DNA from: a virus
Virus record (IMG/VR): IMGVR_UViG_3300046517_000815
Span: 1-20,414 of that record
DNA: 20,414 bases
Direction: 5' to 3' (one strand)
Shown: in pieces, positions 6,645 through 20,414 of the stretch
How positions within the stretch are numbered: the stretch's first letter is position 1
Layout: each line of letters begins with the position of its first letter
The notes under the pieces: model-generated
The model's input: the letters and a program-made list of their open reading frames with translations, nothing else
What the model was told of the DNA's origin: nothing
Databases searched by the model: none
Made by a program: the position numbers and the translations under genes

Positions 6645-7114
6645 CAGCCGCCTCGATTCAGCGTAGATTCCGCTTTGTAGGTATTGTTGGCGCCGGACAG
6701 GAGTTCGCTCCCGGCCTTCAGATACCCGGCCGTCTGAGCGTTACCGCCGGCGAACGCATCGAGGCCAGCGGTGTTGTTGAACTGCCGCTCGCCGAGCTTG
6801 CCGCGGTAGGTGATGTACTGGCGCTCAAGCTCGCTCTGCGCCGCAGCGTCGCCGAGAACATCGAGCACGCTACCCTCGCTGCCGCTGCCGCCTGACTTGC
6901 CCTGCGCAGCCCGGATGCTTCCGAGGCGCATGAACGTCTCGCGATCGTGTTGCGCCGCCAGATCCTCCGCTTCCTGCTTCGCGATCTGCGCGTTCTGCTG
7001 GTTGACCTTGACGTTATAGTTCGCCGCAGCCTTGGCGGTTTCGCCCTGCTGGATGGCGGCGCCGGCGCCCACGACTGCGGCGGCGGCGACGATGAAAGGA
7101 ATTGCGACAGCCAT
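6644..7114 (-). CDS. Internal virion / ejection protein (T7 gp14-like)
   Basis: The 156-residue product begins with a hydrophobic segment (residues 2-22, AVAIPFIVAAAAVVGAGAAI) and continues as a long charged helix rich in Ala, Gln and Glu (NYNVKVNQQNAQIAKQEAED), then an RETFMRLGSIRAAQGKSG turn and a second helix. This order (membrane segment, coiled coil, 'R-G--rAa-G-sG') is typical of gp14-like proteins, which are ejected and form an outer-membrane pore for DNA entry. It overlaps both neighbours by one base (TAATG, TGATG), making an operon with the gp13- and gp15-like genes. Confidence 0.82.
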   Translation of the reverse strand: MAVAIPFIVAAAAVVGAGAAIQQGETAKAAANYNVKVNQQNAQIAKQEAEDLAAQHDRETFMRLGSIRAAQGKSGGSGSEGSVLDVLGDAAAQSELERQYITYRGKLGERQFNNTAGLDAFAGGNAQTAGYLKAGSELLSGANNTYKAESTLNRGG

Positions 7115-7542
7115 TAGTTGTACCTCGCGTACCCGACCGAGTCCGTCCCGTCGGGGTTGTAGCCGCGCATGAGCGGCGCCTCAATCTCAAAACCGAGCAT
7201 CTTCGCCCACCGATGACCGGCGGCGAAATGCTTGAGTACAGTAAGCTCCACGCGGCCCTTGACGGCCGCAAGGTTCTTCAGCGTCTCCTGCGTGATCCAG
7301 AGCATGTGCGGCCCGGTGCCGAGACTCATGTGTGCCCACGCCATGTGCCGGCCGGGCCAGAGCAACATTGTGCCGGCTATCGCGATAGGATCGCCGTCGA
7401 CGACTCCGGTCCAAGTGTTCTGTCTCTCGAGGAGCGCGAGCGTCGATGGATCTCGCCGCATGTCGCCGATCTGGTCGACAGCCGGCCCGCGCTCCATGAG
7501 CCAGTCGTAGTGCCAACTGCGAAAGGGAACTATCTGCCTCAT
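7114..7542 (-). CDS. GNAT-like protein related to T7 internal protein gp13
   Basis: The start is ATG 7542, overlapping the tail B stop (ATGA); the longer frame from 7707 begins with an Arg-rich shadow of tail B. The 142-residue product shows DPIAIAGTMLLWPGRHMAWAHM at 51-72 and RVELTVLKHFAAGHRWAKMLGFE at 97-119. This matches the T7 gp13-type family, which has a GNAT-like fold ending in 'F--G-RWA--LGFe-eg-m--y-PdG-d---Yar'. In T7, gp13 is needed for normal virions. Whether it still acetylates anything is unknown. The position just before a gp14-like gene supports the assignment. The stop overlaps the next ATG (TAATG). Confidence 0.82.
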   Translation of the reverse strand: MRQIVPFRSWHYDWLMERGPAVDQIGDMRRDPSTLALLERQNTWTGVVDGDPIAIAGTMLLWPGRHMAWAHMSLGTGPHMLWITQETLKNLAAVKGRVELTVLKHFAAGHRWAKMLGFEIEAPLMRGYNPDGTDSVGYARYN

Positions 7543-9839
7543 GATTCGTCTGCAACGTCGAACTGAGGCATTACGGCGAGCACCGTCGCCGGGAACGGGC
7601 CGTCGGCTCGCCAGTACACCTGGCCGAGCTTGTCGAAGTCGCCCTCGAAGCGCTCGCGCACAACGCCGGTGAACAAAGGTGTCGCTTCGCCGAACGCATC
7701 GCCCCACTGACGAACGATGAGTTCGGTCAGAGTGTCGGCATCCGGCCCGTACTTGAAGCCAAGCGTATCGACCAACCAGAATCCAATCTGATTGATCTTT
7801 TTGATTTTGGCTTGCGCGGAGCCGTCCTGCGAGCCGCCTTCGATCGGAAGCGTCTGTCCGTCGCTGTTGTAGTAGTACCCCAAGGTGACGATCGTTCCCA
7901 CAGAGTTAAGCGTGATCTTGCCGTTCGTCACTACCGCCTCGGGGTGCTTTGTGCCGTCGACGTAGATCCCGACCGTCTCGCCCTCGAGATGGAACAGTCC
8001 CGTCACGCTCGCGGAGGCCGGGGAGTTGACGACCGTCCAGCCACAGTCGACGTGGAAGGCGTCTTCCTGATCGTCTTCCACCTCCCACAATTTGCTCATG
8101 TACTCGACGTAGCGACGCGACTGCCCGTTGATGTAGCGTTGCACGATCACGTAGAGTTCGTCGCGCGTCGCGCTCGGGTCCGTCACAACCGCGACGCTCT
8201 CGACCGCCGGGATGAGTGTCTGCGCGCTGTCGCTGAAACCGCCGAGTTCGTGACGGTGCCAGCCGACGACTTCCTGATCGCGCTCGTAGGTGAGGCCGAG
8301 CAGCACGCCGTCGCCGCGGACGCCCCACATGATTGCCTGGGGCTGCTCCTGGTAGACGATCTCCTCGACGCTCGGGCGGGTGATGTGTTCTGACAACACG
8401 CTCATGTCCGGCGCCTTGAAGCCGTCCACCTCGAAGACATACGCAAGCTCGCGCACCTTGCGGCCGGCGCGCTGCACGAACAGCGTCGCCTTGCCGGCGT
8501 TGATGGGCGCTACCTCCGCGCTGCCGTGGCGCGAGGCGGGCTTGCCGTTAATGTTCGTCGGCGTCACGGCTTCGGCAAGCGAGGATGCGCGCACCAGCCA
8601 TTCGCCGCGGGAAGTGCCAACCAGCAGCGCCTTCTCGTTCGGTGCCATCCAGCGGATAGCGTTGACATCATCCGAGTTCAAAGTGAACGCGACCGCGTTG
8701 TCCGCGGCGATCGTGCCATCGTTCGCCGAGGGCGAGAAGTTTGTGTAGCTGCTGGACTTCGAGCCGTCGAGCCGCTGGAGAGCGTCGGCACTTCCGGCCA
8801 GGAACAGACGGTCTTCATAGAACGCGCCGCAGGCCGGATAGCCGGTCGACCCCGACCAGAGGCCCAAACGCCACGTTGCTTTCGCGTTCGTGTTGGTGAG
8901 CGTCGAAAGGATGTTGATGTTGACTTGGACGTTGGACGTCCAAGCCGTGACTTCGGCGTAGCCCCAAGTCGAACCTTCTCGGAGACGGATCAACCGGCCG
9001 ACATCGGTCGTCAGGAAGCCTTGGTCATCATTGATGCCCGTCACCGCGCTCGCGATAAGCGTCGTCGCGCCGGTCGCAGCGCCAGGCGTCATGGTCGTCG
9101 CGGTCGTGTTCGTCGCGCCATACGGCCCGTCGGTGAAGGCGATCGAGGATAGTGCCCACGAGAGCGCAGAAGTACGCACAAGCTGCTTCGGCGGGAAATC
9201 CGGGTGCAGGATGTAGAGCACGTCCGCGGACTGGACGAAGCGGATCTCGGAAAGATCGCTCTCGGTATATGTCGTCACCACTTCGAAGATCTCGGCCACC
9301 GTGCCGACCGAGGAATACGTGTCATAGCCGGTGCTGTTGACATTCGTTCCGCCGGAGTCCTGAAGCTCGAACGTATTCGCGCCGGCATTGACGTTCGCGA
9401 CTTTGAACTCGCGATTGTTCACTTGCGTCATGCCGACGACGCCGGAGATATAGACGCGATCGCCGTTGGCGTACGTGTCGGCGCCGACATAAGTCACGAC
9501 CGCAGGGTTCGCCTTCGTGATACCGGAGATGGCCTGCGACGCTTGGGTGAGCGTGCCGTGCAGCGTGAAGAAGCGGATGTAGTTGTGTCCGAACTCGAGC
9601 ACGTAGGTCTGCGTCACCGAGAACTGAAACGGAATGAGGCGCGAAACCTTGTCGTGAAACTTCGTCTGCTGAAGATACGCCATGCCGGGCCGGCGCGTCC
9701 ACGCGCCCTGCACGAGCGGCATTCCGTTCACGCAGACGAACAGACCGGAGTTGTACTTCGCGATGTCCTGGCGACCGAGCATGAGACTGCTCATTTCGCC
9801 AGCGTTGAATGAGTGCTGGATTACCGAGGCGCGGCCCAC
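7539..9839 (-). CDS. Tail tubular protein B / nozzle (T7 gp12-like)
   Basis: This 766-residue product builds the tail nozzle. The N-terminus reads SVIQHSFNAGEMSSLMLGRQD, then NGMPLVQGAWTRRPGMAYL near 38-56, the 'f--GElsp-l-gR-D---y--g---c-N--p---G-l-rRpG' pattern of this family. VLEFGHNYIRFF at 80-91 is also typical, as are ADVLYILHPDFPPKQL around 207-222 and AVAFTLNSDDVNAIRWM. The C-terminal part is beta-rich with EYMSKLWEVEDDQEDAFHVD and a late RQWGDAF segment. It starts at GTG one base after the tail A stop and ends in an ATGA overlap with the GNAT-like gene. Length agrees with T7 gp12 (794). Confidence 0.9.
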   Translation of the reverse strand: MGRASVIQHSFNAGEMSSLMLGRQDIAKYNSGLFVCVNGMPLVQGAWTRRPGMAYLQQTKFHDKVSRLIPFQFSVTQTYVLEFGHNYIRFFTLHGTLTQASQAISGITKANPAVVTYVGADTYANGDRVYISGVVGMTQVNNREFKVANVNAGANTFELQDSGGTNVNSTGYDTYSSVGTVAEIFEVVTTYTESDLSEIRFVQSADVLYILHPDFPPKQLVRTSALSWALSSIAFTDGPYGATNTTATTMTPGAATGATTLIASAVTGINDDQGFLTTDVGRLIRLREGSTWGYAEVTAWTSNVQVNINILSTLTNTNAKATWRLGLWSGSTGYPACGAFYEDRLFLAGSADALQRLDGSKSSSYTNFSPSANDGTIAADNAVAFTLNSDDVNAIRWMAPNEKALLVGTSRGEWLVRASSLAEAVTPTNINGKPASRHGSAEVAPINAGKATLFVQRAGRKVRELAYVFEVDGFKAPDMSVLSEHITRPSVEEIVYQEQPQAIMWGVRGDGVLLGLTYERDQEVVGWHRHELGGFSDSAQTLIPAVESVAVVTDPSATRDELYVIVQRYINGQSRRYVEYMSKLWEVEDDQEDAFHVDCGWTVVNSPASASVTGLFHLEGETVGIYVDGTKHPEAVVTNGKITLNSVGTIVTLGYYYNSDGQTLPIEGGSQDGSAQAKIKKINQIGFWLVDTLGFKYGPDADTLTELIVRQWGDAFGEATPLFTGVVRERFEGDFDKLGQVYWRADGPFPATVLAVMPQFDVADES

Positions 9840-9840
9840 G

Positions 9841-10425
9841 TTAATTCCTAGCCCGAATCCAGTCGTCCTCCGGGGAATCCTGTGCGTCCTTTTCGATGGC
9901 GCCGCTGTGCTTCGCGCTCGCGATAGCGACGTCGAAGTCGTCCTTGATGCTCTCTTTCGCTGCGGTGCTGCCAGTGATTTCCTTGCAGGTCTTCATCGCG
10001 AGCGCGCACTCGAGCGCTTCGACAAACGTCGAGTCGTAAAAGTTCGGATCGATGACGTCCGCCAGGTAGCGAATCTCGAGCGGCGAGGCGTCGTCGGTGA
10101 CGACGTAGACGCCGACGCCTTCAGCCGACTCTATCTTCCAGTCGACACGCTGGCCGCTCTCGTCGTCACGGATGAGGCGAATATAGTCGTTCGGCAACAC
10201 GAAGCGGTTGTGCTCGCCCCACAGTGTTTGATCGCCATCCGCGGCGATGCTGTCGCGACGGATCGCGAAGCCCCAATCATACTTGCGAAGAAGCGCCTTG
10301 CGTGTCGGCTCGAACGCAAGGTTCATCGTGCGCGCGTTCGGGTGGTTCTGCGTCAGCGACTCGAGCTTCTGCGAGACGCCGAGACGCTGGAGAGCCGAGT
10401 TCGCGATTTGGACTTTAGATGTCAT
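9841..10425 (-). CDS. Tail tubular protein A (T7 gp11-like)
   Basis: The protein forms the ring between portal and nozzle in podovirus tails. At 194 residues it is close to T7 gp11 (196). Visible features are the N-terminal IANSALQRLG helix, KALLRKYDWGFAIRR around 43-57 ('R---L--Y-W-FA--R' is typical), FVLPNDYIRLI near 75-85 ('LP-D---l'), and LEIRYLADVIDPNFYDSTFVEAL around 115-137, a strong family feature ('l-YiadV-D---fd--F--ala'). Order directly before tail tubular B is as expected. Translation is coupled by ATGA to the upstream gene; the stop TAA is one base from the GTG of tail tubular B. Confidence 0.88.
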   Translation of the reverse strand: MTSKVQIANSALQRLGVSQKLESLTQNHPNARTMNLAFEPTRKALLRKYDWGFAIRRDSIAADGDQTLWGEHNRFVLPNDYIRLIRDDESGQRVDWKIESAEGVGVYVVTDDASPLEIRYLADVIDPNFYDSTFVEALECALAMKTCKEITGSTAAKESIKDDFDVAIASAKHSGAIEKDAQDSPEDDWIRARN

Positions 10426-11597
10426 GTCGCTAGTTGTTGGAGGACAGCGTTCGGCAATCGCGTCGAATACAACCTGACGCTCTTAATTCCAGCAAAAGGT
10501 TGCGTTGCTGACGCCGTGGTGCCAATCCTGATGGTAGTGAGTCCTACAGGAATGGTTCCTGCAACATCCGTTGACAAAGTACCGTTCAGAACCCCGGCCA
10601 TGTCGTTCGCAGCCCACGCAAAAACAGCCTTGTAAGCGGTGTTCACAACAACACCAGCAACGGCGACGGACGATTGCGCGACCGTAGCATCAAGAACCTC
10701 TCCGATCCATGAAGTCGGCGTGCCTGATCCTTGTCGACTGTCTATTTTGTTATTCGCTGTCCCGTCGTCGATGCAAGCAAAGGTCGCCGATGCAAGAACC
10801 GAACTGCTGACGATTGTGTGTTCTTCGTAAAGTGTACCAACCCCGGCAAGCACCACGCCGGCTGACGGATACGTCAACGTGTCCGCATTTCTTGTCACCG
10901 AAATCGTCGTCGTCGGAATCGGCGTACCGGCCGCTGCGCCGTTTTCAAACTGGAACATATCCACAGCGATCTTGTCGCCGCTCGTCCCGAGTACAATCCC
11001 GATCGCCGGATTCAGCACTGACGCGTCTAGTTCGACGCGCGTGTACGTCGAACTATTCAACTGCGCGGAAATCTCGGAAGTGCTTGCGCCCTGCTGAATC
11101 GTCACGGTGCCAGTACCGGTGATGCGCTTGATGAACACCGAAAACGCGGAGAGCGTCGCCGCCTCGGTGATAGTCTGAAGGCACGAGCCATTGATCGCCG
11201 TTGCCGTCAATGACGACGCCGAGTTGGCGGACCCGTCGATCCCGACCTGATCTTTCGCGGCCGTCATGTTGACTTTTGTCCACGACGCGTTCGACGTATC
11301 GCGCGCTTGCAAGCAGAGGTTCGTTCGCGCGCCCTCGGCCAGATAACCGAGGTACGATCCAACCGCAGTCGTGAAGCCTGCGTAGAACGAACGCGCCGTG
11401 CCGCTCGCCACCGAGGCCCATAGTCCGCTCGAGAGCTTCGTCCAGGCGGTCGTGGCGCGCGTGAAGGTCGCAGCGATGCCGCGCTTCGACTCCGTGGTGC
11501 TGACGGCGCCAGCGCCGAGATCGGCGAACAGAAGTTGAAACGTCGGCTCGAAAGTTCCGCCGACGTTGTTCGCCATCATCCTACGACGGCGGTCCAT
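10422..11597 (-). CDS. Head-fibre or lectin-like virion protein, 391 residues
   Basis: Residues 83-109 (LGYLAEGARTNLCLQ, then a WTK stretch) match the 'E-ARTNLL--S----W-K' pattern of phage head spike/fibre-type proteins that carry beta-sandwich modules. The C-terminal part, about 230-391, alternates strands and ends IKSVRLYSTRLPNAVLQQLAT, the usual end of concanavalin/LamG-like domains ('i--vriY---Ls-aelq-l'). It is therefore probably a trimeric fibre or carbohydrate-binding virion protein. The start could be ATG 11597 or the ATGs at codons 7 and 8 (MMANNVGG), which look more natural as a mature N-terminus. The stop overlaps the next ATG (ATGA). Ser/Thr/Ala-rich composition fits an exposed protein. 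Confidence 0.65.
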   Translation of the reverse strand: MDRRRRMMANNVGGTFEPTFQLLFADLGAGAVSTTESKRGIAATFTRATTAWTKLSSGLWASVASGTARSFYAGFTTAVGSYLGYLAEGARTNLCLQARDTSNASWTKVNMTAAKDQVGIDGSANSASSLTATAINGSCLQTITEAATLSAFSVFIKRITGTGTVTIQQGASTSEISAQLNSSTYTRVELDASVLNPAIGIVLGTSGDKIAVDMFQFENGAAAGTPIPTTTISVTRNADTLTYPSAGVVLAGVGTLYEEHTIVSSSVLASATFACIDDGTANNKIDSRQGSGTPTSWIGEVLDATVAQSSVAVAGVVVNTAYKAVFAWAANDMAGVLNGTLSTDVAGTIPVGLTTIRIGTTASATQPFAGIKSVRLYSTRLPNAVLQQLAT

Positions 11598-12585: not shown

Positions 12586-12601
12586 GCTTCTCCCCGATAC
12601 G

Positions 12602-12626
12602 CCCCGACGCGCGCGGCGCGCCGGGG
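12602..12626 (-). terminator. GC-rich hairpin after the cement gene (attenuator or RNA-stability stem)
   Basis: On the minus strand CCCCGGCGCG pairs with CGCGTCGGGG around a five-base loop: ten pairs, one of them G-U. No U tract follows, so it is not a classical intrinsic terminator. It sits between the abundant capsid/cement genes and the lower-level downstream genes, where a partial terminator or a 3'-end stabiliser would be useful. Confidence 0.4.
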
Positions 12627-12637
12627 TAGTTCAGCCC

Positions 12638-13141
12638 TTACTCGGGCAGGACGTAGTCGACTTCGAGAACCGCGTCTTGCGGCGTGCCGATCACGGTGAC
12701 GATCGCCAGGGCGATGTCGACTTCCAGGTCGCCGGTCGCTCCCGCGGTGCTGATCGCGGTGGCAAACGCGACGGCGAGGCTGTCGCGCCGTTGCGCCGGC
12801 GTGCGAACCGTCTCGATGCTGGCGCGGTTGTTCGCCGCGCCGAGCACCGTCACGGTGCTGAACACTGCGTCGCTGATCGCGATGCCGTTCGGCCGGTAGA
12901 TGCCGGCCTTGACGGCGCCGGTGGTCGTGGTCGGGTTGGTGAGGTAGACGCCGAGAACTCGCGCGCGAACCGGCACACGAACGAACGTGTACCACTGCGC
13001 GGTGGTGCCGCCGGTGAAGCTGGCGGCTGCGAGGTAGCCGATCGCGGTGCGGACGTTCCCGTTCTTCTTGAGAACGTTGACCTTCGCGATCGGGGTGGCG
13101 TCTTGGTCGGAGACTTGTGCAGCGGTGGATACGAGAGCCAT
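12638..13141 (-). CDS. Probable capsid decoration/cement protein, 167 residues
   Basis: The gene lies 12 bases after the capsid stop, with AAGGGA as ribosome binding site. The product is rich in Val, Thr, Ala and Gly with strand-turn patterning (WYTFVRVPVRARVLGVYL, TGAVKAGIYRPNG), fitting an all-beta fold. In BPP-1 the gene at this position encodes the jellyroll cement protein Bbp16. Similar small proteins with 'FVRVPV-ARV' follow capsid genes in many podoviruses. Identity as a cement protein is inferred from position, length and composition. It ends in EVDYVLPE, before a GC-rich hairpin. Confidence 0.6.
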   Translation of the reverse strand: MALVSTAAQVSDQDATPIAKVNVLKKNGNVRTAIGYLAAASFTGGTTAQWYTFVRVPVRARVLGVYLTNPTTTTGAVKAGIYRPNGIAISDAVFSTVTVLGAANNRASIETVRTPAQRRDSLAVAFATAISTAGATGDLEVDIALAIVTVIGTPQDAVLEVDYVLPE

Positions 13142-13153
13142 GTCAGTTTCCCT

Positions 13154-14047
13154 TTAGATCTGGTCGTCGCACTGGATGCGGATCTGCTTGCCCAGTTGGG
13201 TGCGGGTCGCGCCCAAGGTCATGCAGAGATACACCTGGTTCGCGTAGGACTTGTCCGCGCGCGGCCCGATCTGCGTCATCAGGTCTTTCCAGAGGCCCAT
13301 GTACATGCCCGACTTGAGCCACACCGGGATCAGGCGGTTGCCCGACGTGATCGTGAGCCGCTCGGTCAGGATGAAGTCGACGCCCATGAAGCGCTTGACC
13401 TTGCCGTTTTCGAGGACTGCGCTGTTGCTGTAGTCCTTGTTGACGACCTGGATTTCCTTCAGGAGCGAGTCGTGCTCGTAGCTCGAGATGGCGCCGTACA
13501 CCGGCTCCATCAATTCGCCCTTGTTCGCCGTCATCAGGAGGCGGATCGCGTTCTGGAGCTTCGCGACGTTGAGCGCCGAGGCCGTGCCGCCGGTGTTGAC
13601 ACCGACGTCATAGGCGCCCGAGCCGAGCGTGCCGAAGGACTCGCTGGTCGTGCCGTTCTCGCCGGTGAAGTTGGTGCCGAAGATCGCCGTCAGAATGACG
13701 TCGTCCTTGGCACGGTTCATCGCCGCGGAGCCGGCCCGCGCATACGGGCTGGTGAGTTCGATGATGGCGCGAAGCTGGTCTTCGTTGTCGATGAGCGAAG
13801 CCCACTCGTAGTCGAGCGGGAAAACCCACCGCTTGTCCTGCGAGAGATCGAGCAACGGGGTGTCGGCGTGCCGGCTCACCTTCAACTGCGCGGTGGCGGA
13901 ACCGAACTGTTCGACGACCGACGCGGCCTTGCCGACGTGCGAGCCGACGGTGACTGCGCTGGCGAGGCGCGAACCTTCCTGCTGGAGCAGGAGTTCGACG
14001 TTCGCTTTGTACTGCTGTACTGATGCTACGGTGATGGTATCCGGCAT
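13154..14047 (-). CDS. Major capsid protein (BPP-1 Bbp17-like)
   Basis: The 297-residue product has the pattern of podovirus HK97-fold capsid proteins of the BPP-1 type. Notable segments are VQQYKANVELLLQQEGSRL (residues 10-28, N-arm), then VGSHVGKAASVVEQFG, the 'RWVFPLDYEWASLIDNEDQL' region around 73-92, and NRAKDDVILTAIFGTNFTGENG near 110-131, which would include the E-loop/A-domain parts. The C-terminal part has GVDFILTERL and AVYL-like strands typical of these capsids. It follows scaffold and is followed by a small cement-like gene, the standard order. A GGGAGA site lies seven bases before the ATG. There is no sign of an N-terminal prohead protease site. Confidence 0.88.
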   Translation of the reverse strand: MPDTITVASVQQYKANVELLLQQEGSRLASAVTVGSHVGKAASVVEQFGSATAQLKVSRHADTPLLDLSQDKRWVFPLDYEWASLIDNEDQLRAIIELTSPYARAGSAAMNRAKDDVILTAIFGTNFTGENGTTSESFGTLGSGAYDVGVNTGGTASALNVAKLQNAIRLLMTANKGELMEPVYGAISSYEHDSLLKEIQVVNKDYSNSAVLENGKVKRFMGVDFILTERLTITSGNRLIPVWLKSGMYMGLWKDLMTQIGPRADKSYANQVYLCMTLGATRTQLGKQIRIQCDDQI

Positions 14048-14196
14048 TGCCGTCTCCCGAAAAATTTGATACGTCAGTTTGCACCGATCAGGGCTGGTGC
14101 CGCCTGGCGTATCCCTTTCGGGGGCCGGATGTGGGCTGCGTTACTTGCGGGGGCGAACTACAACCGTGTCCGCACGCCTACCACGACTCCAGTCTA
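14048..14196 (-). other. Capsid 5' leader, 148-149 bases without a gene
   Basis: This is the longest non-coding gap in the window. It starts with the shared motif and ends in a GGGAGA ribosome binding site before the capsid ATG. Possible weak stems are GCACC/GGTGC (around 14082-14101) and CCC/GGG around a CGAAA loop (near 14115-14125). No tRNA, known riboswitch or U-tract terminator is recognised. Elsewhere in the window genes overlap or nearly touch, so the retained leader may have a role in capsid mRNA expression or stability. Confidence 0.5.
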
Positions 14197-14199
14197 TCA
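14190..14199 (-). promoter_or_regulatory. Candidate phage promoter motif TGATAGACTG (copy 2 of 3) before the capsid gene
   Basis: The minus strand reads TGATAGACTGGA, with its TGA serving as stop of the 59-residue gene. The same 12 bases recur at 1628-1639 before the fibre gene, and a close variant stands after the terminase. It begins the capsid leader, where a dedicated promoter for abundant capsid would make sense. No convincing -35 box was found. Confidence 0.4.
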
Positions 14200-14376
14200 C
14201 AACAGTGCATTGACCCCTTCCGTCGGCTTTTTCTCACCAAGCACCCACTCGGCAAACTTCTGAGCCGATTGAAGAACTGCCGCCGCATGGCCGTCGTTGT
14301 GGACGCCATGCGCGCCGGGCTGCGCCGCCGCCTCGAGGCAGCGCATCCGAATCTCAGTTTTCGAATCGACCGTCAC
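14197..14376 (-). CDS. Small phage protein, 59 residues, GTG start coupled to scaffold
   Basis: The frame starts at GTG 14376, which overlaps the scaffold TGA (GTGA); the longer upstream reading frame would overlap the scaffold by over 100 bases and has a shadow-like Arg/Gly-rich start. From the GTG the product reads (M)TVDSKTEIRMRCLEAAAQP, then a His/Asn-rich turn, then VLQSAQKFAEWVLGEKK. The pattern 'K-EIR-RCLE-A' plus 'A--F--WVL' resembles a short helical protein commonly found between scaffold and capsid genes in podoviruses, recalled without a name. It is probably two helices. Its stop TGA opens the motif at 14190-14199. Confidence 0.65.
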   Translation of the reverse strand: MTVDSKTEIRMRCLEAAAQPGAHGVHNDGHAAAVLQSAQKFAEWVLGEKKPTEGVNALL

Positions 14377-15251
14377 GACGGGTACATGATCTTGAACAGG
14401 TCGGCCTGCTTCTTCGTCGCAGCGGCGTGCCCGGGGTGCTGCGTATCCTTCAGTGCCGCGACCGCCACCGGGTCGATCTTCATCGCCTCCCACTGCGCCT
14501 TCGCTTCCTCCGGCGTCACACCCCCGAAGCTGCGCGTCTTGTCACCGCCGGTGACGAAGTTGTCTTCGCCCATCTTGCTGCCGAGATCCGCGAAGAACTT
14601 CCAGGTGCCGGCGTAGCCGACGGTGCGCTCGATCGCGTCGATCATCTCCGGCTTGAAGCCGAGTCCTTTCGCCGCCGCCTGCGCCGCGCTCATCTTGCGC
14701 TCATGGCCGTCGCGCCATTCGCCGAGCAGCGCCTTCTTGTCTACCTCGACCGAGAGGTTGTAGTCCGCGGTCTGCTTGTCGAGTACGGTCTTGATGTACT
14801 CGTTGTGCTTCGCGGTCAGCCCCTTGACGGTCTGCGCCGGCAGCCCGAGTTCATGAAACGCGCCGCGCGCCCAGGTCACATAGCCCTCGTCGAGTGTCAT
14901 GCCCTCGGCAGGCTTCGAAAACTCGTACTTGTCCGGCGACGCCGGACGCCCGAGCTTGTCCATCACCTGAAGGAAGCCGGCCGGGTCGTCGGCGCGCGGC
15001 ATGACGAGGAGCGTCGACGGGTCGCGGCCGATCAGCTTCTCGGCGCCGCGAGCAGCCTGCACCGCGTCCTGCGGGCCTTGCCATCCTTTGTTCTTGACGT
15101 ACTCAATGTCCGCCGGCTCGGTGTAGCCGTGCCAGGGGGTTGCCGCGGCCGTCGTGGTGGTGCCGGTCGCAGTGGTCGTCGCCGCGGCGGTTGTGGTGGC
15201 CGCTGCGGTTGTCGTCGTTGCGGCCGCAGTTGTGGCAGTTGCTTCGGGCAT
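14373..15251 (-). CDS. Capsid scaffolding protein
   Basis: Scaffold proteins guide procapsid assembly and leave before or during packaging. This 292-residue product begins with a Thr/Ala-only tract (residues 4-38, one Gly) and then YTEPADIEYVKNKGWQGP, a common opening of phage scaffolds of this type ('Y---KGW--P'). There follow AEKLIGRDPSTLLVMPRADD and the 'KLGRPASPDKYEF' segment, which is typical of the family ('LGRP---D-YE'). The rest is charged and helical. It stands directly before the capsid gene, with only the small coupled gene and a leader between, as expected. An AGGAGG site precedes the ATG. The stop TGA overlaps GTG of the next gene. No protease motif is seen. Confidence 0.85.
   Translation of the reverse strand: MPEATATTAAATTTTAAATTTAAATTTATGTTTTAAATPWHGYTEPADIEYVKNKGWQGPQDAVQAARGAEKLIGRDPSTLLVMPRADDPAGFLQVMDKLGRPASPDKYEFSKPAEGMTLDEGYVTWARGAFHELGLPAQTVKGLTAKHNEYIKTVLDKQTADYNLSVEVDKKALLGEWRDGHERKMSAAQAAAKGLGFKPEMIDAIERTVGYAGTWKFFADLGSKMGEDNFVTGGDKTRSFGGVTPEEAKAQWEAMKIDPVAVAALKDTQHPGHAAATKKQADLFKIMYPS
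15138..15242 (-). repeat. Thr/Ala low-complexity tract at the scaffold N-terminus
   Basis: About 105 bases encode residues 4-38 as only Thr and Ala in alternating short runs (AAATTT-like blocks at the protein level), with one Gly. At DNA level the tract is an imperfect repeat of GCN and ACN codons with varied third bases, so it is degenerate rather than a perfect microsatellite. It may act as a flexible linker and may vary in length between related phages. Confidence 0.75.
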
Positions 15252-15254
15252 TGC

Positions 15255-15260
15255 TGTCCT
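15255..15260 (-). promoter_or_regulatory. Strong ribosome binding site (AGGAGG) of the scaffold gene
   Basis: AGGAGG stands in the 14-base gap between the GT9 stop and the scaffold ATG at 15251, close to the start codon. It is one of the best matches in the window, fitting the high yield needed for scaffold protein. Confidence 0.6.
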
Positions 15261-15265
15261 CCTGG

Positions 15266-16261
15266 TTAAAGATCGAGTTCCTTCAGCCCGGTGATGAAGT
15301 CATCCGGGCTGAGAAGTTCCATGCACAACGAGTCGCCGTAGACGCACTCGTTGAAGTTGTGGGTGATGAGCGGCCAGTTCGATTGGCAGCCGGCGCACTC
15401 GAGATCGCGCGGGATCACGTAGCGAACGCGGTACTCAGAGTTGCCGTGGCGCACGACGAGACGGTGCCGCGGGTGCGCGGCGCCCAGGCCATAGACGATC
15501 GGCACCTCCGTCGTGCCAGCGAGGTGCAGCGTACCGCCATCCGTGCCGATCACCGCCTGCGCGTGCCCGAGCAGATCGCGAAGCTCGAGGAGCGTCGTCT
15601 TCTCCCGAAGGTCGATGCACTTCTGGAAAAGCTCGAGCGGCAGGAGATCGGTCTGCTCGCGGATCACGAGAGGCCGCAGTTCCCCGTTCACCTCGAGTTG
15701 CGTGTGGCTGGTCTTGGTGCCGACGAGCACCGTCGCGTAGCCCTGCTCCTGGCACCAGCGCATGACCGGCCCCATGACGCTCGCGCGAAAGAGCTTGTTC
15801 TCGGACGTCGACCCGACCGGGAAGACGACGTACTTTGTGCCCGGGAACCGGCGCTCGCCGAGCGGCGCCTTCGTGAGATAGCTGCGCTGCTCCATGTTCT
15901 CGGGCATCGCGTTGATGAGGAAGTTGTACGCGTAGTCGACCATGTTCACCCGGCAACGGGTATGCGTCGCGTTGACCGCCGTGTTGAGTGACCAGGGTGC
16001 GTCGCTGATCGCCTGGCGTTCCTTGCGCGACTTCGGCACCTTCGTCAGATCCGCGAACTCGAACTCGCCGTACGGCGCGAGGAGATGCTTCAGGAGATCC
16101 ATCTGCCAGGGGGGCACCCACAGCTTGAACTTCATCGTGGGGTACATCTTGCGCGCGAACGCGATCGGCGGCAACGACGTGATGACGTCGCCGAGCGCGC
16201 CGTGGTTCAGGACGAAGTTGTGCTCGTCGCTCGAGACTACCTGCTTTCCACCGCGGTACAT
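15266..16261 (-). CDS. Glycosyltransferase family 9 (heptosyltransferase-like) protein
   Basis: The 331-residue product has the two-lobed GT-B pattern of family GT9 (ADP-heptose:LPS heptosyltransferases and relatives). Residues 19-31 read NHGALGDVITSLP, the N-terminal 'GD-I---P' signature. VVFPVGSTSENKLF at 145-158 opens the C-terminal Rossmann lobe. VIGTDGGTLHLAGTTEVP at 237-254 is the nucleotide-sugar site ('G-D-G--H-A----P'). Cysteines at 289, 292, 306 and 313 near the C-terminus recall the Cys cluster of many GT9 enzymes, some of which bind iron. The enzyme would transfer a sugar from a nucleotide-sugar to a glycan or protein in the host cytoplasm. Target is unknown: host LPS core (altering phage receptors) or a virion protein. 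The length is close to normal. Such a gene within a head module is unusual. Confidence 0.8.
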   Translation of the reverse strand: MYRGGKQVVSSDEHNFVLNHGALGDVITSLPPIAFARKMYPTMKFKLWVPPWQMDLLKHLLAPYGEFEFADLTKVPKSRKERQAISDAPWSLNTAVNATHTRCRVNMVDYAYNFLINAMPENMEQRSYLTKAPLGERRFPGTKYVVFPVGSTSENKLFRASVMGPVMRWCQEQGYATVLVGTKTSHTQLEVNGELRPLVIREQTDLLPLELFQKCIDLREKTTLLELRDLLGHAQAVIGTDGGTLHLAGTTEVPIVYGLGAAHPRHRLVVRHGNSEYRVRYVIPRDLECAGCQSNWPLITHNFNECVYGDSLCMELLSPDDFITGLKELDL

Positions 16262-16518
16262 CAGGCTCCCCTTCCGTCGAGTAGTTTCCAGAGTTCCTCG
16301 GGGGAGAGGTGAAGGTGCTGCGAGATGCGAAGGAACACTTCGCGCCGACCGTCGAGTTTGGACTGCACGCGCTCGTTGTCGTCGAACGTCGACTCGTTCG
16401 CGCGGCAGAACTTCGCCAGGTCGCGCAGGACGACCTCTGCAAGCGGGCCTTTGAAGGTCGCCCGATAAGCGTAGCGACGCTCGTCAAGGAACCGACGTGC
16501 TTCTTCGAATAGATTCAT
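16261..16518 (-). CDS. Bbp19-like phage protein, 85 residues
   Basis: The start is taken as ATG 16518, which overlaps the methyltransferase stop (ATGA); an earlier in-frame ATG at 16581 would add 21 residues of overlap and is less likely. The product contains RRYAYRATFKGPLAEVVLRDLAKFCRA and then a stretch ending RREVFLRISQHLHLSPEELW. This matches from memory a short family named after Bbp19 of Bordetella phage BPP-1, found between portal and scaffold in many podoviruses and siphoviruses: aromatic/basic helix, 'VL-DL--FC-A', 'GRREVFLRI' and 'L-PEELW'. It is likely all-helical and soluble. Function is unproven. The stop overlaps the next ATG by one base (TGATG). Confidence 0.8.
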   Translation of the reverse strand: MNLFEEARRFLDERRYAYRATFKGPLAEVVLRDLAKFCRANESTFDDNERVQSKLDGRREVFLRISQHLHLSPEELWKLLDGRGA

Positions 16519-17045
16519 TTCACCACCGTCAGCGTCGTACCCCACATCGAGACGATGTTGAAGCAGTGTTTCATCTTCCACTCCAGTTCAGGATCGTTCT
16601 TGTCGATGCTCGGGTCAAGATGATACTGCGTGGCTCCGAGATCGAAGTCGACGCCCAGGCGCCCGGTGAAATCAGTCAGAACAATGCCCTGTGTTCGCAG
16701 CGCAGCGAGATGCTTTTTCGAGAAGCCGAACAGCGTCGCCGGCATCACAGCTTGTACGTGCGTCGGGTCGTTAAGAAAAATGTCGTGGCGCGGGTGTGGC
16801 AACAGCACCTTCAGCGACGCGCCCGGCTTGCCAACGCGCCACGCTTCGCGCATGAAGTGCAGGAAGGCGACACTTGGCAAGTGTTCGAGAATGTGCTCGG
16901 CAACGAGATGATCGGCGCTCGAATCCTCGAACGGCCAGCGTTCGCAGCCAATGTCGCACGCGACATCCGGCGACTCGAGCGGTTCGCGATCGACGTTTAC
17001 GTAGCCGGCCAGCTTCCGGTTGCCGCAGCCAAGGTTTAGTCTCAG
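16515..17045 (-). CDS. Class I SAM-dependent methyltransferase, CTG start
   Basis: Read from the CTG that overlaps the portal stop (CTGA), the product has 176 residues and begins (M)RLNLGCGNRKLAGYVNVD. This is motif I of class I methyltransferases (GCG at 6-8) followed by the acidic ribose-binding Asp19. WPFEDSSAD at 38-45 and AEHILEHL at 49-56 match the motif II/III region, where many relatives have an 'HVLEHL' type sequence. Then come a 'REAWRVGKPGA' helix-strand and HPRHDIFLNDPTHV. A start at TTG 16880 would remove the whole SAM site and cannot be right for an active enzyme. Related phage proteins usually start with a MKLNLGCG type sequence, agreeing with CTG. Substrate is unknown: protein, glycan or nucleic acid are all possible. 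It ends in an ATGA overlap with the next gene. Confidence 0.8.
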   Translation of the reverse strand: MRLNLGCGNRKLAGYVNVDREPLESPDVACDIGCERWPFEDSSADHLVAEHILEHLPSVAFLHFMREAWRVGKPGASLKVLLPHPRHDIFLNDPTHVQAVMPATLFGFSKKHLAALRTQGIVLTDFTGRLGVDFDLGATQYHLDPSIDKNDPELEWKMKHCFNIVSMWGTTLTVVK

Positions 17046-18676
17046 GCGGTCTTGCCTCCGATTGATTTGGCTACGGACGCCATTGCCGGCGCCGCATCGA
17101 CCATTTGCTGCGTTTGTGCGGTTTGGGAGCGGGAGTCGCGACGTGACTGAACATCCTCGGAGGAACGCACCCAGGAGGCCGGGGCGCCGTGAATGTCCAG
17201 AATCTCAGGCATGGCTTCGTCGAAGTCGAACCAGTCAAGAGGTTCGACGTCGCCCGTCATTTTCGAATACTCGGCAGCCGTTGCCAGTGCGCGCATGAAG
17301 CCGGAAGCCTTCTCGGAGCGCGCCATCCGAGAGAGCGGGTTGTCGTACACGACGCGGTACTCGACCGCGGCGTCGATCAAAATCTGCGGCATCCTCGGCA
17401 TCAGCCCTTGAACCGCGAGGAGGCCGACCTCGCGCTCGATCATCGGGCCAAGGAACTCCGAGGACATGCGCCCGGAGGTGGGCGCGAGCAGCATGCCCTT
17501 CTCTTTGGCGCGCTCGAGCACCTCCGTCGCCGTCATCGTGGGCGTCTCGATGAGGATCTGGAACAGCGACACGAGGAAGGCATCGTGGATGATGACCTTC
17601 TCCATGTCCATCATCTTCTCGTTGACGGACAGGTTGCCGGTCGGCAACACGTCGATCAACCGCTTGCCGTCCTTGCTGATCCCGCCGGCGTTCAACGCCC
17701 CGGCCTTGAGACTGAAGCTGCCGAGGTTGCCGTCGTCGTGCGCGAGCAGAACAGGGTCCACGACCCTGTGGCCTTGCTTGAGGTGCGTCTTCTTCTGCTC
17801 GTTCAGAACCTTGATCGAGGGCAGCGCGTACTGCGCAGGGCCGCGGCCGTACGTCTCGCCAGACGCTTGGGTGTAGCGCGTCACCGCATAAGGGAAGTCG
17901 TCGTAGCCCGACTCGCGCAGGAGTTCCATCGACTCGACGAAAATGTGAATCGAGGCAAACCTTTTCCCCTTGGGGTCGAGGCGCCGCGGGTCGTAGTCGG
18001 CGCGCGGACAGACGACGTGCAGGACGTCGTGCTTCTTGTCCATCATCTGCGGGTTCTTCGCCATCTCGGCGATCGTCGCGGGCACCGCGTCGCCGCTCTC
18101 GCTGTACTTGTCGACGATCTGGCGCGCGGTCAGCGGGAATACCCGGTACAGGGTATCGACGATCCCGGCGTGGTTCTCGACGAAGTACGCCTCGCCAAGA
18201 TGGATGTTGCGATAGCGAAGCCCGCGCGTCTTCTCGGGCTTGTCGATGAACAGGATGCCGTTGCCGTACACGCCGAGCGAGAGGTAGGTCTGCTGGCTGT
18301 TGCCGACGAAGTTCGCCACCGGGCGGTAGCGATAGTTGTGCAGCGTCTCGGCAAGTTGATCGAAGAAGACCCGCACCGAGCGATTGCGCCGCAGCACTTC
18401 GTCGAGAGGCTTCAGGCGCGCCCACACGGAACCCTGCGGGGTGGCGATCGACTCGATCACGCTCATAAACTTCTGCGCCGCGAGGCCTGCGGTCGCGTCG
18501 AACATCAACTCGGTTTTCTTCTGCCCCTCGGTCTGCTGCGACAGAGGCCCGGTGAAGGAATAGCGATGCGCCGGCACAACCCGGTCGGCCGCTTCCTCCC
18601 ACTGAGAGTTCCAGTTCCCGCGGTCGGTGCGAAGCGTCCCGAGCCGCTGGATGTGGAACTGCGTAAGCTCGGACAC
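17042..18676 (-). CDS. Portal protein (head-to-tail connector, T7 gp8 type)
   Basis: The portal forms the dodecameric ring at the capsid vertex through which DNA passes and to which the tail attaches. The 544-residue product fits the podovirus head-tail connecting protein family (T7 gp8-like, usually about 500-560 residues). Recognisable parts are the N-terminal helical region with RDRGNW-like spacing and 'WEEAADRVVP' (residues 26-35), 'FDATAGLAAQKFMSVIESIATPQG' spanning about 59-82, and 'YLSLGVYGNGILFIDK' at 131-146, the typical hydrophobic segment of these portals. The C-terminus is Gln/Ala/Ser-rich. The start is GTG at 18676, directly after the previous stop; the ribosome binding site is weak, so coupling is likely. 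The stop overlaps a CTG start of the methyltransferase. Confidence 0.92.
   Translation of the reverse strand: MSELTQFHIQRLGTLRTDRGNWNSQWEEAADRVVPAHRYSFTGPLSQQTEGQKKTELMFDATAGLAAQKFMSVIESIATPQGSVWARLKPLDEVLRRNRSVRVFFDQLAETLHNYRYRPVANFVGNSQQTYLSLGVYGNGILFIDKPEKTRGLRYRNIHLGEAYFVENHAGIVDTLYRVFPLTARQIVDKYSESGDAVPATIAEMAKNPQMMDKKHDVLHVVCPRADYDPRRLDPKGKRFASIHIFVESMELLRESGYDDFPYAVTRYTQASGETYGRGPAQYALPSIKVLNEQKKTHLKQGHRVVDPVLLAHDDGNLGSFSLKAGALNAGGISKDGKRLIDVLPTGNLSVNEKMMDMEKVIIHDAFLVSLFQILIETPTMTATEVLERAKEKGMLLAPTSGRMSSEFLGPMIEREVGLLAVQGLMPRMPQILIDAAVEYRVVYDNPLSRMARSEKASGFMRALATAAEYSKMTGDVEPLDWFDFDEAMPEILDIHGAPASWVRSSEDVQSRRDSRSQTAQTQQMVDAAPAMASVAKSIGGKTA
17055..17059 (-). promoter_or_regulatory. GGAGG ribosome binding site that decides the CTG start of the methyltransferase
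   Basis: GGAGG lies within the last portal codons, nine bases before CTG 17045-17043. No ATG, GTG or TTG in the methyltransferase frame lies nearby before the SAM-binding motif, so this site supports initiation at CTG. Confidence 0.55.
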
Positions 18677-19021
18677 CTAAGACCCGAGGATTCGCCGTGC
18701 GGCGCCGGCGCGCTTTCGCGAACCCATAAAGCCAAGAAGGTCAGAGTCGCTTCCTGTGCGCGAGACGCTGGCGGCGCCAGCGAGATCGTCGTAGCTTTGT
18801 CGACGCGTCGAGAACTGCTCGCCGCTCGGCGAGAGGCCCGCAGCAGCGCGCTGCGCGGCCGTCATTGATGCAGCCTTGGCTGCGTTTTCCCGATCTTGCG
18901 CTGCCTTGGCGGCTTGTTCGTCAGACGTCTCGAGCTTGTCGTCTTGGCCCAAGCCGTGTACGACAAGCCTCGCGGCTGGATCGGTGTAGTTCTTGATGTT
19001 GTCCCTGTCGCCTGAACTCAT
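18677..19021 (-). CDS. Small phage protein, 114 residues, before portal
   Basis: The start ATG overlaps the upstream stop (ATGA), and the TAG stop is followed at once by the portal GTG. The middle (residues about 30-60) is Ala/Lys/Glu/Gln-rich and likely helical or coiled coil (EQAAKAAQDRENAAKAASMTAAQ pattern). The end, DLLGFMGSRKRAGAARRILG, resembles the C-terminus of short proteins commonly encoded just before podovirus portals, where Leu-Leu-Gly is followed by a basic Arg/Ala tail. There is no signal peptide or membrane segment. Function is unknown; packaging or portal-associated roles are only a guess from position. Confidence 0.6.
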   Translation of the reverse strand: MSSGDRDNIKNYTDPAARLVVHGLGQDDKLETSDEQAAKAAQDRENAAKAASMTAAQRAAAGLSPSGEQFSTRRQSYDDLAGAASVSRTGSDSDLLGFMGSRKRAGAARRILGS

Positions 19022-19236
19022 GCTGCCCTCACTTTCGTTGCCTTCTCAGCGCGCATGCGCTCGAGTGTTGAGAACCCCGGATTCAACGGCTGCACGCTTC
19101 GCGGTACGCGCATCTCATCGCGCGCCATGAAGTCTCTCACCTTTGCCGCGATTGCCGCCGGCAGACGTTGCCGCGGCTTGAGCGCCCCTGGTTCGGTCGG
19201 CTTGACATCGCGCCGGCCTGTCTCCCCGAGTCTCAC
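19018..19236 (-). CDS. Small phage protein, 72 residues, GTG start, unknown function
   Basis: The gene begins with GTG overlapping the previous stop (GTGA at 19236-19233) and ends in an ATGA overlap with the next gene (19021-19018). This tight packing on both sides is the main evidence that it is expressed. The product is basic and contains a Pro/Lys/Arg-rich stretch (TEPGALKPRQRLP), a predicted short helix (AAIAAKVRDFMARDEM) and a 'PLNPGFSTLERM' segment. No known domain is recognised. Its place between terminase and portal suggests a minor head or packaging accessory protein, but this is only positional. Confidence 0.55.
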   Translation of the reverse strand: MRLGETGRRDVKPTEPGALKPRQRLPAAIAAKVRDFMARDEMRVPRSVQPLNPGFSTLERMRAEKATKVRAA

Positions 19237-19454
19237 AGCCCGAGATCCGCTGCCGCCGCGCTTCGTGCCCTGGATCGCGCGTACTGTGCGCTTCGTGCCA
19301 TCACGCCCCCTGCCACGATCGTTGAGCCGCGCCCGGTCGCCTTCGCTTCCGAGATGGCGCTGTCGGATGCAATCTGCCGCTGCCTGATCGCTTCCGGATC
19401 ATCCATTGGCGAGGCAGGCACGGTTGACGGGGTTGGCATGTTGACGCTGGACAT
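19233..19454 (-). CDS. Small phage protein, 73 residues, unknown function
   Basis: The gene starts at ATG 19454 with GGGAG six bases upstream, 21 bases after the terminase stop. The product has a Pro/Thr/Ser-rich start, a DDPEAIRQRQ segment, then KATGRGSTIVAGG. Short proteins with a Pro-rich start, a 'DDP' segment and a 'GR-S/A-T-I' core are common next to terminase or portal genes in podoviruses; that likeness is from memory and no function is known. The C-terminal half is Ala/Arg-rich and low in complexity. Its stop overlaps the GTG of the next gene (GTGA), which suggests coupled translation. It is probably real given spacing and overlap, but small. Confidence 0.6.
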   Translation of the reverse strand: MSSVNMPTPSTVPASPMDDPEAIRQRQIASDSAISEAKATGRGSTIVAGGVMARSAQYARSRARSAAAADLGL

Positions 19455-19460
19455 GGATCG

Positions 19461-19465
19461 CTCCC
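19461..19465 (-). promoter_or_regulatory. Ribosome binding site GGGAG for the 73-residue gene
   Basis: GGGAG lies six bases before the ATG at 19454 and supports that start over the in-frame ATG five codons later. Confidence 0.55.
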
Positions 19466-19468
19466 TGA

Positions 19469-19478
19469 CAGTGTATCA
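19469..19478 (-). promoter_or_regulatory. Candidate phage promoter motif TGATACACTG (copy 1 of 3)
   Basis: On the minus strand the terminase stop TGA opens the motif TGATACACTG, followed by TCAGGGAG and then the ATG at 19454. Variants with TGATAGACTG lie at 14190-14199 and 1630-1639, also in intergenic gaps. The part CACTGTCAGGGAG loosely resembles single-subunit phage polymerase promoters (T7 has CACTATAGGGAG). Read as an extended -10 box it would place the transcript start within or next to the ribosome binding site, which argues against an ordinary sigma-70 promoter. Function is inferred only. Confidence 0.35.
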
Positions 19479-20414
19479 GTCGCGATCGAAGAAGGCGCTT
19501 TCCCCCACGCCATGAGCCACTTGCACGCGCGCTTTCCTCCCGCGCGGCACGAAGTCCGCCCGCGGCCAGTCGGACTCGAACGTGCAGGCGAGAGCGTCGG
19601 CGTCGTCGGGGGAACGCATCCCCCTGCGTTGAAGGTCATCTTTGGTTTCGAGAATCTTCTTCCCGTCTTCCCGGCCAGAGTAACGCCACCCGCGATCAGT
19701 AAGCTCGCGGGACAGCGTCTCTTTCTCGCCGCCGTCCTTCTCGATCATCCCGCCGGGGAGCCAACTGCGCACGCGCGCCCAAAGCTCGATCGCGTGACTA
19801 CCCCACTCGCTGTCCTTTCCGTCGTGGGCGGTATCCCCGAACTTCACCTCATGCAGCCGGCCATGCGTGCGCTTTCGCTTGAGGATGTCGATGACTCCGG
19901 TCCCGAGGCCGAAGTCGACGCAGATGTGGTCGGGACGGAACTTGGCGTCCAGATCAAGAACCTTCTGCGCGATCTCGACGTTGTCCAAGCTCTCCCACCG
20001 GCCATACGTGGCGGCGCCACAGCAGTCGCGGGCGTTGCGCCCTTGACGAAACCTCCACGCCGTCCTGCCTCGCGGAGCAGGGTCGATACCGAGCACCAGC
20101 GCCTCGCCATAATCCGGCACGAGAACGTTCTGTTGCGCCGCGCGGACCGCATCCCAAGGGATGAACTGGTCCTCGCTCGTGCGAGGAGGAAGGCCGTCGA
20201 TCTCGACTCGCACGAAGTCCGAGTCCGCGCCATACCGACGTATCTGGTCGTCGACTTCCGCCTGATCGACTCCTGGCATTCCGCGCGTCGAGAGCGTACG
20301 AACGCGCCAGCCGGCCCCTGCCTTCTCGTCGTTGAATAGCTCAAAGAACCTGCCGGTTCGATTGCGCATCTGCGACGAGCAAAGCCACAGGCGATAGGGG
20401 TTTACCTCGGTGAA
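19476..20414 (-). CDS. Terminase large subunit, C-terminal (nuclease) part, cut by the window edge
   Basis: The frame is open to the right edge, so the N-terminal ATPase domain with its Walker motifs lies outside; 312 residues are visible. Large terminases package DNA at the portal and cut the concatemer with an RNase H-fold nuclease. Visible signs: a G-R-F-F-E-L-F stretch near visible residue 22, like the linker after the ATPase; GIDPA with its Asp at visible residue 111; ICVDFGLGTG with Asp at 167; and SPDDADALA with Asp near 273. These match the three acidic nuclease positions of the family. The first in-window ATG (20369) is internal, because sequence upstream of it continues the family pattern. 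The stop TGA is part of a conserved motif at 19469-19478. Position directly before the head genes fits a terminase. Confidence 0.9.
   Translation of the reverse strand, partial: FTEVNPYRLWLCSSQMRNRTGRFFELFNDEKAGAGWRVRTLSTRGMPGVDQAEVDDQIRRYGADSDFVRVEIDGLPPRTSEDQFIPWDAVRAAQQNVLVPDYGEALVLGIDPAPRGRTAWRFRQGRNARDCCGAATYGRWESLDNVEIAQKVLDLDAKFRPDHICVDFGLGTGVIDILKRKRTHGRLHEVKFGDTAHDGKDSEWGSHAIELWARVRSWLPGGMIEKDGGEKETLSRELTDRGWRYSGREDGKKILETKDDLQRRGMRSPDDADALACTFESDWPRADFVPRGRKARVQVAHGVGESAFFDRD

Follow-up and report, generated by a model that had tools for sequence, protein, structure and literature searches.

The stretch of DNA analysed here, called the window, is the 20,414-base IMG/VR virus record IMGVR_UViG_3300046517_000815. 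Its minus strand holds a podovirus late region, in the order terminase, small genes, portal, methyltransferase, Bbp19-like gene, GT9, scaffold, capsid and tail genes, and gene identities were established directly. The portal (head-tail connecting) protein of 544 aa is encoded at 17042..18676 (PF12236, 6.6e-94; PHROG 332, 5e-121) and its stop codon overlaps the start of a gene for a SAM-dependent class I methyltransferase of 176 aa (16515..17045; Methyltransf_11, 2e-5; PHROG 6636 'methyltransferase', 6e-13). Next come an 85-aa Bbp19-like head-module protein (16261..16518; PF25181, 1.1e-13) and GT9, a heptosyltransferase-like GT-B glycosyltransferase of 331 aa (15266..16261; PF01075, 4.4e-10; TIGR02193, 1.8e-10, below the equivalog cut-off). 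A probable scaffold/assembly protein of 292 aa, its role assigned by position, follows at 14373..15251 (PHROG 3742 of unknown function, 1.2e-31; PHROG 458 protease, 2e-8), and the major capsid protein of 297 aa lies at 13154..14047 (PF19821, 7e-68; PHROG 3437, 8e-60). All six genes are on the minus strand. The portal and methyltransferase genes overlap by 4 nt (cTGA) and the methyltransferase and Bbp19 genes also by 4 nt (ATGA), both as read from the DNA; Bbp19 and GT9 share 1 nt, and a gap of 14 nt separates GT9 from the scaffold gene. The original prediction of a three-gene chain inside the head module, made late together with the structural proteins, agrees with this layout: the chain is present, and the gene order and overlaps make it probable that GT9 and the methyltransferase are co-expressed late with the head genes. 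No sigma-70-like promoter was found in 12600-20414, and terminator-like sites occurred there in chance numbers only. The Bbp19-like protein reached 51.3 bits to PF25181 (cut-off 25) and is encoded near the portal gene, as expected for this family. It is a standard head gene, found in relatives with or without GT9 and the methyltransferase, and was therefore wrongly counted as part of a cassette. The window had no DNA match among named phages.

To place GT9 among relatives, viral contigs were scanned with the portal, blind to GT9, which gave 61 loci. Among visible intervals, all 24 with a portal identity of at least 59% had GT9 between Bbp19 and scaffold, and none of the 25 below 50% did. A scan with a GT9 profile gave 72 viral loci and one MAG locus, and in each of the 58 non-redundant loci that showed portal, Bbp19, GT9 and scaffold together, GT9 again lay between Bbp19 and scaffold; several of these loci are near-copies of each other, which inflates the counts, and they come from metagenomic contigs, many of them incomplete. 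In one clade of Head-tail_con podoviruses GT9 is a constant part of the head module, and this clade-wide synteny was observed directly. The nearest named relative, MW202898 (52% portal identity, complete genome), has portal, small gene, scaffold-like gene and capsid in this order, and its annotation shows no GT9 between the small gene and the scaffold-like gene. The same order is found in head modules of BPP-1 / BcepC6B-type podoviruses, and in BcepC6B, Stenotrophomonas phage BUCT708 and MW202898 the stretch from portal to capsid holds neither a glycosyltransferase nor a methyltransferase. Since MW202898 does without GT9, the modification is not required by this architecture. No GT9 match was found anywhere in the collection of named phages.

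Pairwise identities of GT9 correlated weakly with those of the portal (0.34), and those of Bbp19 likewise (0.44). Clear cases of divergence were isolated ones, such as the pair L072/L109, with portals 96% and GT9 66% identical. Allele swapping of GT9 as a general sign of diversifying selection is not claimed, as the correlation is weak for Bbp19 too and the clear cases are single. In another pair, L078 and L079, Bbp19 is 57% identical as against 94-100% for portal, GT9, scaffold and capsid, which is, going by these identities, a replacement of one tiny head gene.

GT9 matched PF01075 at 39.7 bits (gathering cut-off 22), making it a member of the family. Its best weak NCBIfam matches were LPS heptosyltransferases I and II, at scores below the level of these equivalogs (TIGR02193, 40.6 of 185 bits; TIGR02195, 28.1 of 134.6), and TIGR04414 (BAHT) stayed below its equivalog cut-off as well (16.4 of 200 bits). 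We aligned 17 GT9 sequences, with relatives 42-70% identical to the window protein. Invariant were G24-D25, the residues D241, G243 and H246 of the donor motif D241-G-G-T-x-H246, and four C-terminal cysteines at 289, 292, 306 and 313 (C-x2-C-x13-C-x6-C). T152 is invariant and K156 kept in most, the two corresponding in the alignment to the T-x3-K of WaaC. Some deep members (L023, L025, L026) lack K156, so that their donor may differ. The AlphaFold (AF2) model had a mean pLDDT of 89.3, and a Foldseek search of the PDB ranked TibC first (2e-13) and WaaF second (3e-12), followed by a Veillonella GT9 and WaaC. The protein thus combines a predicted GT-B fold with an N-terminal Asp and the C-lobe D-x-G-x-x-H donor site. 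A sequence search of the PDB with GT9 gave no match.

TibC O-heptosylates the protein encoded next to its own gene and needs four iron-binding cysteines for its dodecamer and its activity (PMC4358343). Together with AAH it belongs to the bacterial autotransporter heptosyltransferases (BAHT), which have a GT9-like GT-B catalytic fold, and in BAHT loci the substrate gene often directly follows the transferase gene. The donor residues of TibC, Thr226 and Lys230, have the same spacing as the T-x3-K of phage GT9, and its iron finger (C-x2-C-x15-C-x11-C) resembles the four-cysteine set of the phage protein in layout, as compared by sequence only. However, phage GT9 is just 15-18% identical to TibC/AAH and has no autotransporter nearby. 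Its presumed catalytic Asp is residue 25, as against 110 in TibC, which leaves no room for the N-terminal beta-barrel of TibC. The LPS heptosyltransferases WaaC and WaaF share with phage GT9 the family, the N-terminal G-D motif, the D-x-G-x-x-H motif and the fold. In contrast, WaaC and WaaF of E. coli K-12 are without the C-terminal cysteine set, and the phage protein is encoded in a head module and scores far below all NCBIfam equivalog cut-offs. As far as the models go, the fold ranking of TibC and WaaF leaves protein and LPS acceptors unseparated.

Two functions had been proposed for the enzyme pair at the outset, modification of host LPS or of a virion protein, and we infer from the genes that a virion or assembly protein fits better as the target. 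Under the LPS explanation, GT9 would late in infection put heptose or a related sugar on the host LPS core and its partner would methylate it, so that the receptor is masked and progeny avoid debris and infected cells. We rank this second, because GT9 belongs to the LPS heptosyltransferase family, with LPS heptosyltransferases I and II as its best weak NCBIfam matches, and WaaF is a close, nearly equal structural match. It is a real rival, though less likely in our view than a protein target, given that in every relative GT9 is held in place by virion assembly genes on both sides and that a late operon would be silent in a lysogen. Phage genes that alter receptors are usually early or lysogeny genes.

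The methyltransferase has no ATG, GTG or TTG at its true N-terminus. Homology places its start at a near-cognate CTG codon (17043-17045) that overlaps the portal stop and lies behind a GGAGG. In relatives the start codon, at roughly this position, is CTG, TTG, GTG or ATG (CTG in L004, L101 and L114). As the CTG overlaps the portal stop and relatives start at about the same spot, translation of the methyltransferase is probably coupled to the portal gene. It reached 25.6 bits to PF08241 (cut-off 21.2), and an L-N-x-G-x-G motif was invariant in the alignment (A4), from which rows L011 and L038 were excluded as they are not methyltransferases. The AF2 model had a pLDDT of 92.9 and matched class I methyltransferases in Foldseek at 5e-8. 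With motif I and a predicted Rossmann-like fold, the protein is classed as a generic class I SAM-dependent enzyme. The sole hint of sugar methylation was a weak match, far below cut-off, to a mycofactocin oligosaccharide methyltransferase model (4e-4).

Among the 58 complete intervals the methyltransferase was present in 24 (about 40%), in 23 of them between portal and Bbp19 and once, in L025, after GT9. Mapped on the portal tree, its presence requires about 9 changes, and on the GT9 tree 11. The survey was made by GT9 and by METHYLTRANSFERASE, and its methyltransferase-profile scan gave 49 loci. All 30 loci with at least 40% identity were inside the head module of the GT9 clade, and GT9 accompanied every one of them whose contig or stored flank reaches the GT9 position, three ending before it. 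The 19 weaker loci belong to other phages, where the sampled neighbours include RCC1-repeat proteins, sulfotransferases and GT25. Obligate pairing of the two enzymes was rejected, as GT9 is present in 58/58 and the methyltransferase in 24/58; the dependence looks one-sided, with the methyltransferase relying on GT9 and not the reverse. The neighbourhoods of related portal genes thus held GT9 constantly but not the same pair throughout, and in place of a fixed pair we find an optional partner, with about nine gains or losses along the portal tree. Rare and independent occurrence of both enzymes in relatives, the outcome named beforehand as speaking against the idea, was seen for neither, since GT9 is constant and the methyltransferase common. 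In L104, which has no methyltransferase of the clade type, an unrelated FkbM-type methyltransferase lies between Bbp19 and GT9; it also counts towards modification of a virion protein.

Close pairs gave dN/dS values of 0.05-0.13 for GT9 and 0.03-0.07 for the methyltransferase, well below 1, so both genes are maintained by purifying selection. More distant pairs gave 0.2-0.4, a figure that saturation makes less reliable. These values bear on the explanation that the two are passenger genes (morons) in an expressed slot, with functions not tied to the virion. The interval does accept passengers, as endonuclease VII/HNH genes occupy its junctions in L011, L088, L092, L101, L103 and L108 (assigned by eye from the sequence in L092, L101 and L108), and the methyltransferase comes and goes. 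However, no member of the clade lacks GT9, and its close-pair dN/dS is about 0.1, which passengers do not show, and we regard this explanation as very improbable. Both enzymes are real, maintained and situated in the head module, and glycosylation of a protein or a surface was the right kind of activity to propose.

Sequence tests for the acceptor gave negative results. The Ser/Thr content of capsid, scaffold, Bbp19 and portal showed nothing standing out, and alignment columns with Ser/Thr kept in GT9-bearing relatives alone were, in these four proteins, not above other residue classes. In the window the N-terminus of the scaffold is of low complexity and rich in A and T residues; this Thr-rich part was considered as an O-glycosylation stretch and rejected, as it is not conserved, and it is probably only a linker because many relatives have Pro-Ala or Gly-Ala there. 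At 10422-11597 of the window (minus strand) a protein with a GTA-type head spike fiber domain is encoded (NF048003, 6e-19, over the cut-off), a possible further virion surface protein and glycan acceptor. A protein of 167 aa encoded after the capsid (12638-13141) is another candidate. That no acceptor was identified by the tests would also suit a late-made target of another kind, which could be phage DNA, a host protein or an assembly factor outside the virion; the virion would then just be close by. DNA is a documented target of phage glycosyltransferases, according to work cited in PMC12619734. Nevertheless, the gene families listed for two complete genomes of the clade included none for base hypermodification, and GT9 sits with head genes and not with replication genes, so that we consider such a target improbable.

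As for the sugar, none of six clade contigs of 38-44 kb carried a GmhA-type gene. Two of them have terminal repeats of 123-127 bp and are therefore probably complete, and these two had no HldE-C or gmhA match. No GT41 was found in the GT9 clade. A self-supplied ADP-heptose was rejected for this clade, as no heptose-synthesis genes were detected in the contigs examined, and a donor sugar of the host would be needed. The only host evidence came from an Acidobacteria MAG, in which contig C390 (1-39014; L118 / G012) has phage head genes adjoining bacterial genes that include a type III secretion-like set; this is possibly a prophage fragment, though MAG contigs can be chimeric. The same MAG has a GT9 of its own beside an HldE-like gene, which is in line with LPS modification, and gave no gmhA match. 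No further prophages were found in the other 395 genomes of its phylum.

More distant relatives carry sugar genes of a different kind in the same region. In L048/L188 (one contig), L050 and L051, with portals 40-41% identical to that of the window, the order is portal, Bbp19, PfkB kinase (rfaE-like), GmhA-like isomerase, two TPP-enzyme subunits and radical SAM/SPASM, followed by scaffold, a 123-aa protein and an HldE-C-like nucleotidyltransferase. Only in L048/L188 does a TPR+GT41 gene come next, and then the capsid. This heptose-like sugar-nucleotide head module spans 5266-13839 in L188 (IMGVR_UViG_3300012683_000005), 8694-15626 in L048 and 1843-7725 in L051, and is also present in L050. GT41 is the O-GlcNAc-transferase family, the known members of which act on proteins. 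Judged by their predicted genes, these loci speak more strongly than the window for virion glycosylation with a self-supplied sugar. The same gene set was found in other phage contigs with the head genes not in view, and the cassette therefore looks like a mobile module. In the Manatee Spring podovirus MW202801 (L179), genes for a radical SAM protein, a glycosyltransferase, a PhyH dioxygenase, a methyltransferase, a NodB-like protein and a further glycosyltransferase lie at 5959-10622, between capsid and tail genes. As in the window, such enzymes are inside the structural region; unlike there, the cassette comes right after the capsid, the enzymes differ and no GT9 of the clade family is present. 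Together with the distant cassettes this indicates that phages of this portal family repeatedly carry sugar enzymes in the head region, and that the enzymes differ from case to case. In L131 (record G010, a probably complete genome), a 904-aa protein at 8745-11459, combining MptE/Maf-like, class I methyltransferase, FkbM methyltransferase and 2OG oxygenase parts, stands just before a pectate-lyase-like tail spike.

Taking the evidence together, we give an about even chance to the reading that GT9 glycosylates a virion or assembly protein with a sugar nucleotide of the host, and that the methyltransferase caps the sugar in some members. It is favoured because of the tie of GT9 to head genes, its absence in sister phages, the resemblance to TibC and the parallel cassettes. 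Against it count the negative Ser/Thr tests, the near equality of WaaF with TibC in the fold search, the lack of GT9 in MW202898, the K156 losses and the failure to detect heptose-synthesis genes in the clade. GT9 would be a dedicated, late-expressed cytosolic glycosyltransferase of one clade of Head-tail_con podoviruses that draws on the activated sugars of the host, with ADP-heptose or a related nucleotide sugar as the most likely donor. It would transfer the sugar to a protein being made and assembled at that time, for which capsid, cement and scaffold are candidates, as are other virion proteins. Where the class I methyltransferase is present, in about 40% of members, it would O-methylate the added sugar, so that the glycan is capped or varied. 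More tentatively, and with less confidence than in this general reading, GT9 may be a clade-wide TibC-like protein heptosyltransferase in the head operon, acting on a capsid or assembly protein with an interchangeable methyltransferase varying the glycan, and distant relatives may have separately evolved the same habit with a self-supplied heptose-like sugar and GT41.

Glycosylation of capsid and tail tube by phage enzymes is established in mycobacteriophages (PMC12363180). The phages Che8, Corndog and Myrna are proposed as an analogue, with phage-encoded glycosyltransferases decorating capsid and tail tube; they are, however, other phages of other hosts, and the activity was demonstrated in them while here we infer it from genes. 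Virion glycosylation by phage enzymes is thus already known, and it is the GT9 fixed in a podovirus head module that appears undescribed: neither named phages nor the open-licence papers searched yielded one, though the wider literature may differ.

The usual assumption is that glycosyltransferases of phages have DNA or host surface sugars as their targets. The constant GT9 and frequent methyltransferase among the head genes suggest, short of proof, that this group of uncultured tailed phages decorates its own particles with sugar. As GT9 is never lost from the portal-scaffold interval and is replaced in distant relatives by a sugar-nucleotide cassette, one with GT41, the idea that uncultured podoviruses regularly decorate their heads becomes concrete and testable. 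Such phages could be found by a marker, a GT9 gene located between Bbp19 and scaffold, and a small set of candidate acceptors is at hand.
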